IMG/VR virus record: IMGVR_UViG_3300005578_000001
Location: 1 to 64,000 of that record
Length of the DNA: 64,000 nt
Source of the DNA: a virus
Direction: 5' to 3' (one strand)
A program made the translations under genes and the position numbers. The number at the start of each line of letters is the position of its first letter. The stretch's first letter is position 1. Under the pieces are notes generated by a model. The model ran no database searches. It worked only from the letters and a program-made list of their open reading frames with translations, and was not told the DNA's origin. Positions 3,174 to 32,570 of this stretch are shown here, piece after piece.

Positions 3174-6100
3174 ATGTGCGCTCAAGTGGCCATCAGCCTT
3201 GCCGTGGCGGGCGCTACCACCGCAGCCCAGCTTCTCTTTGCGCCTAAGCCTAAGAAGCCTGCGCCGATCGATCGTGGCAAGCTTGATGATGCGCGATTTT
3301 CAATCCCCGCATTAGGCGCGGCGATTCCGAAAGGCTGGGGTACTTTTCGCTGTGCTCCGATCTGGATAGACCACGTTCCCACCATCCACACTGTTCAGGT
3401 TACAGAAGGACAATCAGGCGGCAAGGGGGGCTCGCCAACGCCTCCGACCGCGGATGAACGCAAACACATCTACACAAAGTCGGTGATTGGGGTCTTTCAC
3501 AACGGCCCTATCTTCAAAGGCGTCTCCAAGATGTGGTTTGGCGAGAAGCTTGTCTATAACTCTAATCTCGCCACCAACGAAGCTGATACCGCAACCCTGC
3601 GCGGTGAGGCAGAACATGGAGTACTAAGTGGCGGGGCGTCGGTGGTCACGCAGGCTGAATGCTCAGGTGGGCGTAAGGTAACGGGGATTGGAAGTGGTGG
3701 AGTGTGTGTGATCACTGTGGATGTGCCCACAACCGGAAGCTACGAGATTGCGTGCTTCTACACTTCAACAGTGCAGCGAACCTTTAAGATTCGGGTTAAT
3801 GGCGGGGCGCTCAATGATCTCGTTTGTCCAGCCTCGGGGGGCGCAGGTGAAGTTACCAGCGAGGTTATTACTCTTACTCTTACCGCGGGTGCAAATGCAA
3901 TTCAGTTTGAGAATTCGGGCGCTGCGTGTCCTGACCTTGACCGCATCGACGTAGCCCCAGCGCTCGTGTTCACGCCTGAGGGTGAAGACCCGCGTGGGTT
4001 TACCGGAATTATTCGTCCCGGTCGCTTTGGCCCTGACGATCCTGACTTTGCCTGGCCCGCGACAAATGAACAGCCGACGTTTAGCGAGACAACGGGTGGA
4101 ATGTCTAACGGAGGATTTATTCAGGCAAATCTTTCCGAATGGGGCAATCCGACTATCAGGTTTCACTTAGGCAGTGAACTACAGGAAGCCGATCCAATTA
4201 CTATCGCGTTGCGTGGCCTGAACCTCTCACCCGGCTATCGCGGGCTGGGAATCATAGCCATCGACAATATCCAGTTACAAAACGGGCAAATGCCGAATGT
4301 CACGCTGGAGATCCAACAGGGGGTACGTGAACTACCCGCGATCGTGGCCGATATTTACAAAGAGGTGAATGTCCCGCCTGAGTGGTTGGATTTGAGTGCC
4401 TTAGCCGGAAAGTTACTTGGAGATGAATCGGGCTTTGATCCCGGTACTTATACAGCCATCACGTGGACTGGGCTGAGTAACGCTACCCAAACAGGCGGAG
4501 GTGCGATTACCAAGACTTCGGGCACGAATAATACATGGAATGCTTATGCCAACTCAGGTGATTCCGTTTCAACGGGTACCAACGCCTCAATTCGCTTCAC
4601 CGCGGGTGCAGCGGGTACTTACATGGTGGGGTTTGCTTACACTACGACTCCCGGATCTACTCTTCCACACCCTTACGATCAGGTTCCGTTCGCGGTGGTA
4701 CTGAATAAGAATTCCAACCCCTCGCAGGAGGCCAAGAATTCGATCCAGCTCAGTCTAGGCGGGATCAATAACTCATTCGACGTAGGCATGTGGAGTGCGG
4801 GGGATAAGTTTCAGATCGAGTATCGTAATGGTCGATTCATGGCCTACCAGAATGGGTTAGCCCTAACTGGTTATATCCCTCCGGTTCCTTCTACTTTCCC
4901 GTTGAAGCCATTGTTCACGGGCTATGCGACAGGTGGTGGACCATCGGCAACTTCGTTCGCTACCGGGGCAAATATCGGCACTGAGCCTATCGTCGCCAAT
5001 GGGGGAGGATTGTTTATGGAATCCCCCGCCCCAGCCGCAGAGATGATCGCCGCCCTCATGCTGAGATTTCAATTCACTTTGCCCGAAGTTGACGGAGTAG
5101 TGAAAGCGGTGCTCAATAACGCTACTTCAGATCTGACTATCCCTTACACTGACCTGCGGGCGCACCGGGGCGAACAGCGCCCTCCTGAAGATATGATCAT
5201 CACGCGTGTTGATCCATTACAACTGGCAAAACGTACTACCGTTACTTATTCAGATCCTGCTTACTCCTATCACACGCGCACGCAATCAGAACAGAGATTA
5301 TTCGGCCCACAACAGGGAGCGCATGATGTAACTCTGCCGATGATCGAAACCGCGCAGAATATGAAGAACCTGGCGATTATTATTTCGAATCGCGAGGAGA
5401 TTGAAGGCCAGACGTACAAGTTTACGCTTGGCCCAAAGTACATGCGCATTCATCAGGGTACGGTGTTGACTATCAACGCTCGTTCCGGGGTTACACACAC
5501 AGTCAGGGTGAGAGATCTAGGGCTTGAACTTCCGGCTGGAGTAGTGGACGTAGATGCGGTCAGGCAAGATGCTTCAGTGTTCTCGGCTAACGGAACGCCG
5601 GGTGATATCGGAGTGGAGAGTCCGATTGTGCAAGTGCCGGGTAACACACTTGGAATCTTTCTCGACGCGCCCCTGATACCGCCGGATGATTCGGTGGATT
5701 TACCACAGCCAGTTTTATACATCGCCATGAGCGGTAGAGGCTCAGGTACATGGCCGGGTGGGTTCCTGTTCCGCGAGTTTCCTTTTAACTCCGGCAATTA
5801 TCAATTATTAACCAGCACGGATAAACCAGCCCTGACTGGAATCACTGCCGGGACATTGGGGAACCACGCAGATCTAACCGTGCTCGATACTGTAAACTCA
5901 GTGGCAATAAACTTCTATGGTCTAACCAGTCTGGAAAGCGTTACGGAGGCAGAGTTAATCGCCAACCCGCGCCTCAATCTGGTCGCTATCAAGGGCGCCA
6001 GCGGCGACTTTGAATACTTACAATTCCAGACTGCGACGCCGGGCGTGGCCGTAGCCCCTTATGTCTCGCGTTATACGATCAGTAACCTGTTGCGTGGGCG

Positions 6101-25633: not shown

Positions 25634-26059
25634 TTAAGATACGTATTCCTCCTCAGTGCCGAACTTGGATCGTTCGACTGTTTTCTTTTTGTATGTGTAC
25701 TGGATATCGGCGATGCTGTGATAGTTCTCGGCATCGCTGAACTCGCGATTTTTCTTCTTAACTGTACCCGCCATAGGAACCAGCATAACGCCGCTTCCGG
25801 TAAAGAGAATTCCCGTCTTCAATCCCTTTGCCAAACGTTGTAGTGTGGGAGCGGTCGGCATTTGACCACCTTCAATTCGCGCAATCATAGGCTGGCGAAT
25901 TCCTGTGAGTGCAGCAAGAGACTGCTGGGTCAGTCCTAGTTCTTCGCGTCTCTGTGCGAGGGCAAGCGCGAAATCCATCTCTTTATCGACTTGCTCGTAC
26001 TGTTCTGCAAACTCAGGATCTTGTAGTTGCTCTTGGAGGAACTCTTTAAAAGAACTCAT
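25634..26059 (-). CDS. HigA-type antitoxin (XRE)
   Basis: 141 aa from the ATG at 26059, after AAGGAG and overlapping the toxin stop (ATGA). Residues ~37-85 form an XRE helix-turn-helix (REELGLTQQSLAALTGIRQPMIARIEGG). The last ~45 residues (KKKNREFSDAENYHSIADIQYTY...) lie where chaperone-addiction sequences sit in TAC antitoxins. Toxin-first order is that of HigBA. Confidence 0.8.
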   Translation of the reverse strand: MSSFKEFLQEQLQDPEFAEQYEQVDKEMDFALALAQRREELGLTQQSLAALTGIRQPMIARIEGGQMPTAPTLQRLAKGLKTGILFTGSGVMLVPMAGTVKKKNREFSDAENYHSIADIQYTYKKKTVERSKFGTEEEYVS

Positions 26060-26421
26060 TGTTTCTCCTTTCCGGCTTCGTTTACGAGCCAATCATCCAT
26101 CCGGTCTTCTGCCGTTTTGATGTCTACCTCGGGGAGACGTTGCGTCGTTTTTCGGATCGCGTGCACTACGATGAACGCCTGATTCTCACTACTGAAAAAG
26201 AAGAAGATCCGAAATTCATTTCCCCCGTATTCGGGACGAAGCGCCCAGATCTCGCCTCGCACCTTTTCGAGATAGTTTCTGGGGAGCTCGAACCCGTGGT
26301 CTTCCAGCATCCCTATGTACTTGGCGCATTTAGCGCGTTCGCCGTGCGATAACTCTCGAAGAAATCTTGCAACCGGCTTTTTACCCGCGAGATTCTCGTA
26401 GAAATTTGCGTCCCAAGACAT
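26056..26421 (-). CDS. HigB/RelE-family toxin
   Basis: 121 aa from MSWDANFYEN. The pattern VARFLREL, LPRNYLEKVRGEIWALRPEYGGNEFRIFFFF and AFIVVHAIRKTTQRLP is that of the phage-derived Gp49/HigB mRNA-interferase family. The start lies 10 nt after the -10 box, so the leader is nearly absent. It is coupled to the antitoxin by 4 nt. Confidence 0.8.
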   Translation of the reverse strand: MSWDANFYENLAGKKPVARFLRELSHGERAKCAKYIGMLEDHGFELPRNYLEKVRGEIWALRPEYGGNEFRIFFFFSSENQAFIVVHAIRKTTQRLPEVDIKTAEDRMDDWLVNEAGKEKQ

Positions 26422-26431
26422 GCGGGAGAGC

Positions 26432-26459
26432 ATTATAACTCGGAAGTTATAATAGTCAA
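26432..26459 (-). promoter_or_regulatory. Promoter and operator of the TAC operon
   Basis: TTGACT (26454-26459), 16 bp, TATAAT (26432-26437). A perfect 9-4-9 palindrome, ATTATAACT ... AGTTATAAT (26432-26453), covers the spacer and -10 box. This fits autoregulation by the XRE antitoxin. Confidence 0.75.
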
Positions 26460-26545
26460 GCGCCGGGGAAAGCAAAAAGCACAATTTTCCAAAACAGATT
26501 ACTTATGGACGATCGGGCGCGGGTGTCGATTCGCGGACTGTGGTC

Positions 26546-26794
26546 CTAATTCGGTAGACCAACCCGATCATCAATCAAAACGTCCGTTGAGATTCCCGCC
26601 AGCCTTGCATATGCCAGCAAGACCATTAACGGCGGTTCCCTTCTTCCGCTCTCGAATTGTGAGATTTGCGCCGGGTAAAGCGGCGAAGCTTTATAGTTCA
26701 ACGCCTTCACCATTTCTGTTTGACTCAATCCTAAATTGGCCCGGATCTGCGCAAGCTTCTTTGCCAGCTTCTTAGGTACAGGACGCTTCGCCAT
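26546..26794 (-). CDS. XRE regulator, leftward member of a pair
   Basis: 82 aa from MAKRPVPKK, 8 nt after GGAGGG. Helix-turn-helix IRANLGLSQTEMVKAL ... PAQISQFESGRREPPL, then LLAYARLAGISTDVLIDD. It is clearly related to the rightward regulator at 27212. The two diverge around a palindromic operator, as in a phage-type switch. Confidence 0.8.
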   Translation of the reverse strand: MAKRPVPKKLAKKLAQIRANLGLSQTEMVKALNYKASPLYPAQISQFESGRREPPLMVLLAYARLAGISTDVLIDDRVGLPN

Positions 26795-26815
26795 TAGAAG
26801 CGCCCTCCGTAAGAC

Positions 26816-26844
26816 TTGCACGCGGTACTAGCAACTGCTAGTAT
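26816..26844 (+). promoter_or_regulatory. Divergent-region promoter with 8-2-8 operator
   Basis: TTGCAC (26816-26821), 17 bp, TAGTAT (26839-26844). The perfect palindrome TACTAGCA-AC-TGCTAGTA (26826-26843) overlaps the spacer and most of the -10 box. It sits between the two XRE genes and is a likely target for one or both. Confidence 0.65.
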
Positions 26845-27211: not shown

Positions 27212-27457
27212 ATGGGGAAGCGACCGCGCCGGAAGTCGAAAGACTTGCCCGCCAAGCTCCTTGCTATCCGGCAACGGCTGGAATTGAGCCAATGGGAAAT
27301 GTCGCGCTTGCTGAATTTTCTAATAACTCCCGCGCGGATAAGCGAGTGCGAACGAGGAAAACGGGAACCGAATCTGTTGGTCCTACTCGCTTACGCCCGC
27401 GCCGGAGATGTTACCGTGGACCAACTGATTGACGATGACCAAAAACTCTATTCCTGA
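27212..27457 (+). CDS. XRE regulator, rightward member of a pair
   Basis: 81 aa. IRQRLELSQWEMSRLLNF ... PARISECERGKREPNLLVLLAYARAGDVTVDQLIDDD aligns along its length with the regulator at 26546. Starts 1 nt after the preceding stop. Confidence 0.8.
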   Translation: MGKRPRRKSKDLPAKLLAIRQRLELSQWEMSRLLNFLITPARISECERGKREPNLLVLLAYARAGDVTVDQLIDDDQKLYS

Positions 27458-27863: not shown

Positions 27864-27881
27864 TCAGATTAGGACACTACC
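27864..27881 (-). repeat. Right terminal inverted repeat
   Basis: Exact complement of 21619-21636. It also encodes the last residues (GSVLI) and stop of the leftward phage gene it interrupted. Confidence 0.85.
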
Positions 27882-28358
27882 CAGTTTCGGTTTCGGCAGT
27901 GACTTCACCGGGGCGAGGTCAATAGCCAGTTCTTTCTTTGCGTCCCGGCCCGCTTGACTGAGCTTAGCAGCTACTCCCATAGCATGATCGTATCGAGCCT
28001 GTCCGATGCCATCTAAGCGCTCACGTGGCACAATAGCCAAGCGCCGGAACGCGCGTCCTGTATGCCGGATTCCCTGTTTGATGTTTCGCTCCGACTCTTT
28101 CAGGCGATCAGCCGGATTGAGAAACTTCAATCCGATTCCATGGATCCACTCACTGTCGATGTCGCGATCGTTGCGGAGTCTGCGCCGCCATGCGTTCACC
28201 ACACCGTAATAGCGATTGGTTTTAGCGGGGATTTTTATTAACGCTTCGAACTCTGAGTGACGGATCACTTGATCTTCATCCGGCGTGGGAAATGCCTCTT
28301 CCAGCTTGCGCACGTCGGGGCCGTAGGGAATGCCATTTACTAACTGAGCAGGTTTCAT
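27864..28358 (-). CDS. Conserved phage protein with transposon-altered C-terminus
   Basis: 164 aa. Residues VIRHSEFEALIKIPAKTNRYYGVVNAWRRRL resemble a common phage early protein with a helix-turn-helix-like fold, of unknown function. The last codons after KPKL run into the transposon end and read GSVLI-stop. Across the duplication the uninterrupted phage sequence would read KPKLVVNE-stop. The start overlaps the upstream gene by 4 nt. Confidence 0.75.
   Translation of the reverse strand: MKPAQLVNGIPYGPDVRKLEEAFPTPDEDQVIRHSEFEALIKIPAKTNRYYGVVNAWRRRLRNDRDIDSEWIHGIGLKFLNPADRLKESERNIKQGIRHTGRAFRRLAIVPRERLDGIGQARYDHAMGVAAKLSQAGRDAKKELAIDLAPVKSLPKPKLGSVLI
27882..27890. repeat. Target site duplication, right copy
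   Basis: CAGTTTCGG, identical to 21610-21618. Confidence 0.85.
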
Positions 28359-28522
28359 TTCTTGTTTCTCCGATCCTTCATAAGCTCGGAAATAGATCCT
28401 TTCATTTCCACAGGTTTCTTTCTTCCGGCAAGTTGTTTGTTTACCTGAAGCGAATAGGTCAAAGCGCCCTTATGCTTACCATGCTTCCAGAATGCGCTGG
28501 ATTTCTGTCGCGTTTTGATTCT
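28355..28522 (-). CDS. Small basic protein
   Basis: 55 aa from MRIKTRQKSSAFW, the better start within a longer frame. Very Lys/Arg-rich (KHGKHKGALTYSLQVNKQLAGRKKP), likely nucleic-acid binding. It lies directly downstream of the three-unit structured element. Confidence 0.55.
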   Translation of the reverse strand, partial: RIKTRQKSSAFWKHGKHKGALTYSLQVNKQLAGRKKPVEMKGSISELMKDRRNKK

Positions 28523-28573
28523 CATGGCAGTTATACGCCATTGGCGTCGTTGCTTAACCTGTCCGGGCCTTCC

Positions 28574-28940
28574 ACGCTCCGCAACGCATAGCCGTGGATC
28601 GCTTAGCAATATAGAGCAAACTAATTTCAGGCCATTGGCCCCCATGACGTACCGAGCCCAGTAGGGCCGCGCAATGCACCGCTATAGCAATGCTCCGCGT
28701 TGGGAAAATCTATAATTGCAATAGGCCATAGGCCCCTAGCCATGCACGGCCTTACTACGGTGTGCCGCTCGCAGCCGAGCAACTGCCGGGCGCAGGCTGG
28801 CCCTGCTCTACGCAGAACTCTATATGATTTCAAAATGGACCATTGGTCCCCCCGCGCTGCGTTACCAACCTAGCCGCACAAAGGGCTACAGTGCCGGGCC
28901 GCGCGTCGCCACCCGAGGATAGCTCTGCTATACGGAGCCG
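28574..28940 (-). ncRNA. Three-unit structured RNA candidate
   Basis: Gene-free GC-rich stretch of ~370 bp within a leftward operon. Three related hairpins recur: GGCCATTGGCC (28630-28640), GGCCATAGGCC (28724-28734) and GGACCATTGGTCC (28837-28849). On the minus strand each is preceded by a run of G and followed by an A/T-rich 15-25 nt segment with TATAGA or similar, then a stem-loop with GYGGAGC or GTAGAGC in its loop. Units are ~94 and ~113 bp apart. It looks like a tandem folded RNA or a repeated protein-binding site. No known class was recognised. Confidence 0.55.
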
Positions 28941-28947
28941 AAAACTT

Positions 28948-29607
28948 CTATTCTTCAACGGTTGCCTCAAACATTCCAAACTGCCCCGGCGTAGGGCTTC
29001 CCGGTCGCCAGTTTCCTAACCCCTTGTAGCGACCTGCTAATTCAAGGATCTGTCGGAGAATCTTGACTGTAATCGCCTCATCCATGATGACGATCCGCCC
29101 CTCAGTGGCCCACTGCTCGAAGCGTGGCCGCACTCGTATATGCTTACTTTGACCTACGCGCACGCGCTTGACGAACAACGAGAATCCAAGCTTCCGCACC
29201 CCTTCGATATGTTCGACAAAATGAGCCTTGTCCTTAAGATCGTTGATATCAGACATAGAGATCGTCGCGCCTGAGCCATTAATGAAGAGAGGCCAGTGAA
29301 ACTCAGGGCATAACAAACCGCTTTGCGATTGTGCCTTAAAAGTCTTCTTCCCCGATCCGGTCGGCACCTGAGCCCCGCCTTCCATCAGACAGCGCATGAT
29401 ATATTCACTTGGAATGGTAACGATTTCCCCGTCCGTATTCAGCGAGCCAATCCAGCGAAACGGCGGCGTTCGATCGTCGCCAGCTTTCGACTTCGCTTTA
29501 TTCTCAGGTTCTTTACGCCACTCGTCCATCGCGTCAGACCACTCGATATTATCAGCGTGCATGAGTAGGGGCGTTAAGCCCTTAATGGTAACTTTTACGT
29601 TTAACAT
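28948..29607 (-). CDS. Conserved phage protein, possible RAMP-like fold
   Basis: 219 aa. It starts MLNVKVTIKGLTPLLMHAD and ends GLGNWRPGSPTPGQFGMFEATVEE. The beta-strand start and glycine-rich end recall RAMP/Cas7-like proteins, but this is weak. No catalytic motif was seen. It lies immediately upstream (in transcription) of the three-unit structured element, which makes RNA binding worth testing. Confidence 0.65.
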   Translation of the reverse strand: MLNVKVTIKGLTPLLMHADNIEWSDAMDEWRKEPENKAKSKAGDDRTPPFRWIGSLNTDGEIVTIPSEYIMRCLMEGGAQVPTGSGKKTFKAQSQSGLLCPEFHWPLFINGSGATISMSDINDLKDKAHFVEHIEGVRKLGFSLFVKRVRVGQSKHIRVRPRFEQWATEGRIVIMDEAITVKILRQILELAGRYKGLGNWRPGSPTPGQFGMFEATVEE

Positions 29608-29619
29608 AGACCGTTTCCC

Positions 29620-29901
29620 TTAGAGCCCAAAAACCTCACGGGCTTTTTCCAATCGTTGTAGATAGCCGCCATTACGTTTGCCTGCTTTAGAAGCCCAGCG
29701 AAACCGATGGCCGGGGAATACTTCAGCTTGGTCTACCAGTCCCGCTTTAACCAGCTTAGCGGTATGCGCACGTACCGTTCGCGCTGAAATAGCGCCTTCG
29801 ATTTGCTGCGCGATCTCCGAGTTGGTCAGCCACTTACTTTCGTCGCCGCGCAGGACTAAGTAAACTTTTAATTCGTGGATTGAGACTTCGCTTTTCTCCA
29901 T
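29620..29901 (-). CDS. Winged-helix DNA-binding protein, leaderless start
   Basis: 93 aa from MEKSEVSIHELKVYL. Layout WLTNSEIAQQIEGAISARTVRAHTAKLVKAGLVDQAEVFPGHRFRW is a winged helix-turn-helix. The ATG lies 7 nt after the -10 box with no ribosome site. Confidence 0.75.
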   Translation of the reverse strand: MEKSEVSIHELKVYLVLRGDESKWLTNSEIAQQIEGAISARTVRAHTAKLVKAGLVDQAEVFPGHRFRWASKAGKRNGGYLQRLEKAREVFGL

Positions 29902-29908
29902 ACGGCGG

Positions 29909-29937
29909 AGTATGGCATGGTGAGGCGAGGCAGTCAA
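29909..29937 (-). promoter_or_regulatory. Leaderless leftward promoter
   Basis: TTGACT (29932-29937), 17 bp, CATACT (29909-29914), 7 nt, ATG. Same geometry as at 12.64 and 50.01 kb. Confidence 0.65.
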
Positions 29938-30813: not shown

Positions 30814-31052
30814 CACTTTTCCTTTACGTAATCCGGCAAGCTGCGCGAACTATTCGACGCTTCCCGATCCTGTACCTTCGGCATGATCTCTTGGAGTTTT
30901 CGCTGGAGTACAGAAACCGTCAACATTACTTCCTGCCGCTCACTTGCGTTAAGGAACGTGAATGTACTCGTAAAGGGATCGAACACTGAGAGGTTCAGGT
31001 AGAAGCCGAGCAGGAAATCATACTCAGTCTTGGAATTTGTGATCGTGTCCAT
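30813..31052 (-). CDS. Hypothetical helical protein
   Basis: 79 aa from MDTITNSKTEYDF, 6 nt after GGAG. Mostly helical, with SERQEVMLTVSVLQRKLQEIM. No family was recognised. Confidence 0.6.
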   Translation of the reverse strand: MDTITNSKTEYDFLLGFYLNLSVFDPFTSTFTFLNASERQEVMLTVSVLQRKLQEIMPKVQDREASNSSRSLPDYVKEK

Positions 31053-31320
31053 TTGAATCTCCAAATTGCGCCTTGAGTGTGCGTAGGGTAGCGATTGTTG
31101 CGGTCAGTTTACTTACGTCAACTCTAATCGCTTTCATCTTCTCATACTCCGTCGCAGTAATCTCATAAGTAGTGAAGCGCGCGCCACAGTGCAAGCACTC
31201 ATGCCGCCGTCGCCGGCACTTACCTGAAACTGAGTCGCGCGAGTCCAGTACTGAGCTACTGCCGCGATGACACTTTGGGCAGCCTAGACCGACTGGAAAT
31301 GTGCGGGTAGAACGTTTCAT
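31024..31320 (-). CDS. NrdR-like zinc ribbon protein
   Basis: 98 aa. CPKCHRGSSSVLDSRDSVSGKCRRRRHECLHCGARFTTYE matches the zinc-ribbon half of NrdR, the regulator of ribonucleotide reductase genes. The ATP-cone half is missing. It lies near thyA, so a link to nucleotide metabolism is possible. Confidence 0.75.
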   Translation of the reverse strand: MKRSTRTFPVGLGCPKCHRGSSSVLDSRDSVSGKCRRRRHECLHCGARFTTYEITATEYEKMKAIRVDVSKLTATIATLRTLKAQFGDSNGHDHKFQD

Positions 31321-31503: not shown

Positions 31504-31692
31504 TCATCTCTCCTTTGTATAATCCGGCGTCGTGCGTTTAATTGCCGCGTCCACGTCCAGTAACTTCGCCCCGGTGCCGCTGGTAGTGGTAGCGAGGGGA
31601 AGGCCCTGTTTCTCGGCGTCAGACTGCCACTCAGGCTGTTCCAGCTTATCTAGTACCTCGTCAATTTCGCGGTTGGTGGGAGGGGTGGTCAT
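31504..31692 (-). CDS. Hypothetical protein
   Basis: 62 aa, ATGA overlap with thyA. Acidic helix first, then Thr/Gly-rich and IKRTTPDYTKER. No family was recognised. Confidence 0.6.
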   Translation of the reverse strand: MTTPPTNREIDEVLDKLEQPEWQSDAEKQGLPLATTTSGTGAKLLDVDAAIKRTTPDYTKER

Positions 31693-32570
31693 ACTGCGAC
31701 CTCCGCTTTGATTGTGGGATAGGGATCATAATTCGACAGTTTTAGATTCTCGTACTTGAACGTCAGTAATCTTGATAACGGCGTCCAGAACGATTCTTCC
31801 GCTTCTTCCCATAGGCTGACAGTCAGTTCCGGCAACGGCTTCGGTGTTCGTGTTAGCTGCTCTCTAACTTGAGAAATGTGATTCTTGTAGATATGTACAT
31901 CACCGAAGCTAATAACCAGATCCTTCGGCTCGTATCGTTTTGTTGCGCGGGCAATCAAAGTAAGTAGAAGCGCGTAACTGGCGATGTTAAAGGGCAGGCC
32001 GAGAAAGCTGTCGATACTACGCGCATAAAGATGAAGCGACATATATTGGTTAGGGTGAACTTTAACCTGCCAGAGAGTGTGACACGGAGGCAGAGCAACG
32101 CGGTCACAGGAATTCGGGTCCCATCCCGAGACAATATGCCTACGAGAGTTTGGATTCTTTTGTAGATCGGTCATTAGTCGCGAGATTTGATCCAGTCCGC
32201 CAACGCGACCGTATTGACGACAGGGATATTCGCCACCAAAGTTACGCCAAAGATAGCCGTACACTGGTCCCAGATCGCCCGCCTGACGCCCAAATTTTGC
32301 ACACTGCTCCTCGGTAGCCCACTCTTGCCAGATGTTAACACCAGACTGCTCTAGTTCATGTTCGTTTGTACTGCCGCGCAGAAACCAGAATAGCTCCTCT
32401 GCAATCCAGCGCAAAGGCAGTTTCTTAGTGGTTAATAGTGGGAATCCTTCACGCAGATCAAAGCGAATCTGTTCCCCGAACAATGAGAGCGTACCGACTC
32501 CGGTTCGATCATCGTGTTGCTCACCGCGGGTGAGAATCTTGTCGAGTAATTCTAAGTATTGTTGCATCAT
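31689..32570 (-). CDS. thyA: Thymidylate synthase
   Basis: 293 aa, full length for ThyA. Makes dTMP from dUMP using methylene-tetrahydrofolate. RTGVGTLSLFG, FLRGSTNEHEL, LGPVYGYLWRNFGG, the active-site LPPCHTLWQ cysteine, SLHLYARSIDSFLGLPFNIASYALL and FGDVHIYKNH are all in place. Coupled to the MazG-like gene upstream by 4 nt. It boosts dTTP for phage DNA. Confidence 0.95.
   Translation of the reverse strand: MMQQYLELLDKILTRGEQHDDRTGVGTLSLFGEQIRFDLREGFPLLTTKKLPLRWIAEELFWFLRGSTNEHELEQSGVNIWQEWATEEQCAKFGRQAGDLGPVYGYLWRNFGGEYPCRQYGRVGGLDQISRLMTDLQKNPNSRRHIVSGWDPNSCDRVALPPCHTLWQVKVHPNQYMSLHLYARSIDSFLGLPFNIASYALLLTLIARATKRYEPKDLVISFGDVHIYKNHISQVREQLTRTPKPLPELTVSLWEEAEESFWTPLSRLLTFKYENLKLSNYDPYPTIKAEVAV

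Follow-up and report, generated by a model that had tools for sequence, protein, structure and literature searches.

An element at ~28938-28535 on the minus strand of the analyzed window, the whole stretch of 64,000 nt covering positions 1-64,000 of IMGVR_UViG_3300005578_000001, is very probably (roughly 0.9, judging from sequence) the array of guide RNAs belonging to a tailed-phage VIPR system. This system would comprise the RAMP protein Vipr, four vrRNAs and the accessory protein Vap, and its relaxed [N]GY-NN units go together with a D199N substitution in Vipr.

According to the 2026 preprint that described it, VIPR combines a RAMP protein of phages, Vipr, with accessory Vap proteins and with vrRNAs built from GGY/NN units and a structured tail (PMC13142463). 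Pairing to dsDNA is through the NN bases and skips one base, mostly the codon wobble position; phages direct it at satellites and at the lysogeny regulators of prophages and thereby silence their competitors (PMC13142463). The preprint gives 9-16 units per vrRNA with the consensus GGY/NN or a related one, the related consensus sequences being placed in fig. S17 (PMC13142463). As the locus appears to be a VIPR system, its kind is already known from that work. To our knowledge, what is new is a sister pair in which one scaffold base has been released, with a unique G-loop substitution and guides that still spell regulator motifs, although the supplementary figure of related consensus sequences may already list a relaxed one (PMC13142463).

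Array layout and tail hairpins

The array strand is the minus strand, and the element occupies the space that separates two genes, 28948-29607 and 28355-28525. A preliminary description of this DNA had recognized three GGCC-type hairpins in a gene gap, each with a G run on the 5′ side and A/T-rich DNA on the 3′ side. We confirmed these hairpins on the minus strand (28849-28837, 28735-28723, and 28641-28629) together with the two flanking genes, but the units are four rather than three, as a missed hairpin, ACGCC-AAT-GGCGT at 28547-28535, lies immediately before the next gene. Each unit consists of a guide tract followed by a tail hairpin with a covarying stem, all on the minus strand. The tract of vrRNA 1 (28851..28938) carries 18 [N]GY-NN units, two of which are short by one base, and its tail is GGACC-AAT-GGTCC (28837..28849). 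vrRNA 2 has 15 units, one with an extra base (28736..28811), and the tail GGGCC-TAT-GGCCT (28723..28735), while vrRNA 3 has 11 units (28643..28698) and the tail GGGCC-AAT-GGCCT (28629..28641). The 12 units of vrRNA 4 (28549..28607), which was absent from the preliminary description, precede the fourth hairpin (28535..28547).

The second stem-loop that had been proposed for every unit, with the letters GYGGAGC or GTAGAGC, turned out to be the first repeat units of the tracts (GC-GGA-GC and GT-AGA-GC), and folding of the units was no better than that of shuffles (z 0.12, 0.21, -1.02, and -0.20). The whole region likewise showed no excess structure over dinucleotide shuffles (z -0.45 on the minus and -0.47 on the plus strand); thus, structure alone would not have flagged the element. 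The covariance models of Rfam release 15 gave no match at the gathering threshold or at E up to 5, a DNA search with the element in phage records gave none either, and a sigma-70 promoter scan found no candidate. A terminator scan returned one terminator-like match on the plus strand, which equals the chance expectation.

The tails behave differently in comparative analysis. The stem letters vary among the window units with pairing kept, and a covarying hairpin follows all four tracts, in line with the structured 3′ tail of VIPR. Among the relatives, 98.5% of the stem cells are paired, and changes on both sides of the stem, the compensatory changes sought by the preliminary description, occur in 14 cells versus 3.4 in shuffles. 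A perfect stem was found at 165 of 289 array ends compared with 8.8% of control places. The noncoding RNA element of several units, encoded by the minus strand, was thereby borne out. Its proposed identity as a new RNA class or a replication element was not, for the units are guide tracts with a 3′ hairpin beside a RAMP gene, that is, the putative vrRNAs of a VIPR system.

Vipr, Vap and related loci

The gene upstream of the array, vipr (28948..29607, minus strand), encodes a 219-aa protein of phrog_4652, a family that carries no functional annotation, and contains the G-loop KGLGNWRPGSPTPGQFG with N199. Its AlphaFold model (pLDDT 81.6) adopts a RAMP fold of the Cas7/Csm3 type; the best Foldseek matches and the top 50 VIA-align rows were CRISPR RAMP complexes, and type VII Cas7 aligned with Z 10.2 over 161 residues. 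Profile comparison by hhalign linked the protein to Vipr of Escherichia phage SUSP1, whose VIPR system is of type II (PMC13142463), at 98.6% (E 7.8e-16). The model and this profile match together identify a phage-encoded RAMP-fold Vipr with a G-loop. Downstream of the array, vap (27864..28358, minus strand) encodes a 164-aa accessory protein with a winged-helix-like domain and long helices, whose model (pLDDT 87.9) has weak matches to DNA-binding proteins. By hhalign, it matched SUSP1 vap1 at 89.8% (E 1.8e-6), and homologues were found in 61 of the related loci scanned, as expected of a vap adjoining vipr. PADLOC and NCBIfam held no family for vipr or vap.

Between the array and vap, a small basic ORF of 56 aa was called on the minus strand (28355..28525), and it had no family match passing the cut-off. 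Elsewhere in the window, we observed an IS1-type transposase gene within the phage contig (23644-24483, plus strand), an overlapping HTH_3 gene and Gp49-family gene that are likely a toxin-antitoxin pair of the HigBA/RelE type (25634-26092 and 26056-26484, both minus strand), and a 98-aa protein with an NrdR-type zinc ribbon (31024-31320, minus strand) near the thymidylate synthase gene at 31689-32570.

We fetched relatives of Vipr from nine viral loci in a first scan, 78 in a second scan and three in bacterial genomes. In nearly all of the ~80 viral relatives, the stop codon of vipr is followed directly by tandem GGYNN pentamers, which often precede the gene as well, with each tract terminating in a short covarying hairpin. 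Canonical relatives such as L002 and L012 (vipr 79% identical) share with the window a locus arranged as vipr, four vrRNAs and vap, as well as the tail hairpin type, but their units are strictly GGYNN (first G 0.92-1.0) and residue 199 is Asp, in contrast to the relaxed units and Asn199 of the window. SUSP1 resembles the window in its homologous Vipr with a G(V/L)GxWRP loop, its homologous vap, and its tandem-pentamer vrRNAs with a structured tail, read with a one-base skip and with the wobble at the skip (PMC13142463). It differs in having the first G in ~76% of units with Asp in the loop, and in that its published tail contains a pseudoknot whereas the window tail is a simple hairpin. Vipr of the window is nearer to that of the sister phage L009 (87%) than to that of L012 (79%), while its Vap is nearer to L012 (87%) than to L009 (74%); the opposite nearest relatives suggest a mosaic history within the locus.

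Relaxed units and residue 199

A pentamer HMM scored the minus strand of the window at 27.1, a value reached by 0 of 500 dinucleotide shuffles (maximum 20.5), and the L009 array at 42.9. In the full units of both phages, the second position is G in 72/84 (86%) and the third is C or T in 81/84 (96%). The first position is G in only 23 of 51 window units (45%) and in 37/84 over the two phages. The window thus has 11-18 units per tract that keep GY without the strict GGY. The parse of the tracts, which uses a few one-base indels, maximizes G2 and Y, and for this reason a second count was restricted to ungapped runs of at least six GY pentamers. In this count, the fraction of first G was 0.83-1.00 (median 0.96) in nearly all relatives, 0.76 in SUSP1 and 0.6 in L009, the last on five units only; the window contains no ungapped run of six GY units. 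In SUSP1 (locus L011), T or A replaces the first G in about one quarter of the vrRNA units at 2820-2887 and 4090-4310, so GGY is less strict there than stated in the main text of the preprint (PMC13142463). The SUSP1 value also indicates that the first G is not absolute even when Asp is present. Among the loci compared, majority loss of the first G is restricted to the window and L009.

The same two phages are set apart at residue 199 of Vipr (KGLG-D-WRP). In an alignment of about 80 Viprs, in which L071 is the same contig as L009, Asp occupies this column in 78/78 other sequences, SUSP1 included, and Asn is confined to the window and L009. It is the sole column conserved above 90% at which both deviate, and four more distant phage Viprs likewise have Asp. 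A scan of viral contigs for KGxGNWRP coding sequences found no Vipr beyond the L009 contig; L093 and L094, considered as further GNWRP-type Viprs, were rejected as unrelated proteins. As no further Asn199 Vipr was found, the substitution represents one evolutionary event and its link to the code is a correlation, from which we infer that D199N may have caused the relaxation.

The guide letters themselves are maintained. Between the window and L009, the NN bases agree at 34/38 and the third base at 15/18 (25/28 and 11/13 in the aligned guide 2 tracts), compared with four-fold sites that agree at only 0.36 in vipr and 0.32 in vap. The vipr genes of the two phages differ with dN 0.094 and saturated dS, indicating purifying selection.

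Predicted targets and alternative explanations

Guide 2, decoded with a one-base skip, reads YIRFTVAHELGHCL, which is the HExxH motif of ImmA/IrrE peptidases, and its counterpart in L009 (L9b) likewise spells this motif. By hmmscan, decoded guide 2 gave weak matches to Peptidase_M78 (E 0.054) and Met-zincin (E 0.035), and decoded guides 1, 3, 4, L9a and L9b gave nothing, as did control peptides. A target pattern that took its NN bases from guide 2 and L9b and left the third bases free, fixed before any target was known, was used to scan viral contigs. There were 22 matches, 21 of which encode HELGH in codon register with the wobble at the skip base; many of these sites read RFTxAHELGHW, and 5/5 proteins checked belong to Peptidase_M78 of the ImmA/IrrE family. 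In support, guide 2 stripped of its GY bases and used as a blastn query retrieved plasmid genes, in which the site was HELGH in 4/4 records checked, two of them annotated as XRE family regulators.

The first guide of L009 (L9a) matched the HTH_3 gene of the window at 27212-27457 (plus strand) at 29/38 NN positions, at the motif LLAYAR..V..LID and with a one-base skip. None of 200 shuffled guides reached this level, and other skips were at chance. A second place with 26/38 NN lies at the same motif of a related HTH gene (26546-26821, minus strand). Both genes are near the VIPR locus, and given these matches the window phage may itself be a target of its relative's VIPR. Matching of NN with a one-base skip was therefore seen for the HELGH sites of guide 2 and L9b and for guide 1 of L009. 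Guide 1 of the window decodes as PLxHYAKLVGASHEYLM, a similar motif that is possibly HTH-repressor-like; its best place in the window is the same site of the gene at 27212-27457, at chance level, and tblastn with the decoded guide found nothing. Exact target scans with L9a and with guides 1, 3 and 4 of the window gave no matches, and an exact natural target was found for no guide. Guide 3 had looked excisionase-like and guide 4 XRE-like by eye, which was not supported, the target scans being without match.

ImmA-type peptidases and HTH repressors jointly control lysogeny in many mobile elements. The occurrence of both motifs in the guides fits the published role of VIPR. Because guide 2 and the L009 guides spell regulator motifs, the system looks intact and aimed at lysogeny regulators.

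Possibly, though we consider it doubtful, Vipr of the window reads three bases per unit: D199N would free the first G, and GY-NNN units would then pair along a target without gaps. This would account for a third base nearly as conserved as NN (15/18 versus 34/38, with four-fold sites at only 0.32-0.36), and guide 2, when no base is skipped, encodes the target motif free of stop codons. Contiguous reading of L009 guide 1, in contrast, gives a stop codon at a Tyr, the wobble base of L9b does not fit the Glu of HExxH, and recombination could have exchanged the two arrays. Wobble consistency of the decoded codons was discarded as support, being largely circular. If true, three-base reading would place the window between the gapped VIPR code and the contiguous guides of CRISPR, set by one G-loop residue.

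More than half of the units lack the first G and there are several one-base indels, as would also be expected of a decaying VIPR array, whose repeats drift after function is lost, with Asn199 as part of the decay. We regard decay as unlikely, because it should strike all fixed bases, yet G2 stands at 86% and Y at 96%; purifying selection on vipr is strong, a single conserved column being changed, the guide letters agree far beyond nearby four-fold sites (NN 34/38 and third base 15/18 against 0.32-0.36), and the tails still pair despite changed letters.

The remaining explanations start from the hairpins. Repeated in a gene gap, they could be DNA sites, hairpins or iterons, to which a phage protein binds for replication or packaging, as the preliminary description suggested. 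The pentamer code is strand-specific, however, and placed after vipr in relatives, the variable guide letters spell regulator motifs, and no Rep or origin gene adjoins apart from that of a short wHTH protein (29620-29937) whose Rep-like matches are weak, which leaves such an element very improbable. Least probable of all is a CRISPR-like array of hairpin repeats and spacers bound by a Cas7-like protein. A hairpin and a variable stretch do adjoin a Cas7-fold protein, and Class 1 CRISPR RAMPs (type VII Cas7 and Csm3) share the RAMP fold with Vipr (Z about 10 over 160 residues) as well as guides with periodically unpaired bases (PMC13142463). In place of near-identical direct repeats, however, the window has stems that differ between units and stay paired; the variable stretch has a period of 5 nt, not 6 nt, and matches only with a one-base skip, and there is only one small RAMP, with neither direct repeats and spacers nor a cas gene among the neighbors tested.

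The VIPR reading is thus carried by features that can be read from the DNA itself, namely the RAMP fold, homology, tract periodicity, tail covariation and the motif matches of guide 2 and the sister's guides. The minus-strand operon would encode Vipr, four vrRNAs and Vap, each vrRNA being made up of 11-18 pentamers and, after them, a hairpin tail. Vipr would bind all along the guide tract, gripping the fixed bases in every unit and leaving the variable ones accessible, so that the NN pair could base-pair with codon positions 1-2 on the coding strand of the target while the wobble base lies opposite the fixed part. We infer that the vrRNAs are expressed, that RNPs form and that the window system silences its targets; the bound complexes would act on regulators of the lysogeny switch in competing mobile elements, which for guide 2 would be an ImmA/IrrE peptidase and for guide 1, less surely, an HTH repressor. 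In the window and one relative, the first G of GGY would no longer be required, alongside D199N in the G-loop.

VIPR, described only recently, recognizes DNA by means of guide RNAs and is thought to be older than CRISPR. Of the three bases fixed in its code, one appears to have been released naturally in the window, and a single candidate residue, 199 in the G-loop, may govern this, which makes it testable how a RAMP sorts guide bases into scaffold and read. The guides would also extend the predicted targets of VIPR, for a group of uncultivated phages, to lysogeny regulators of the ImmA/IrrE and HTH types.
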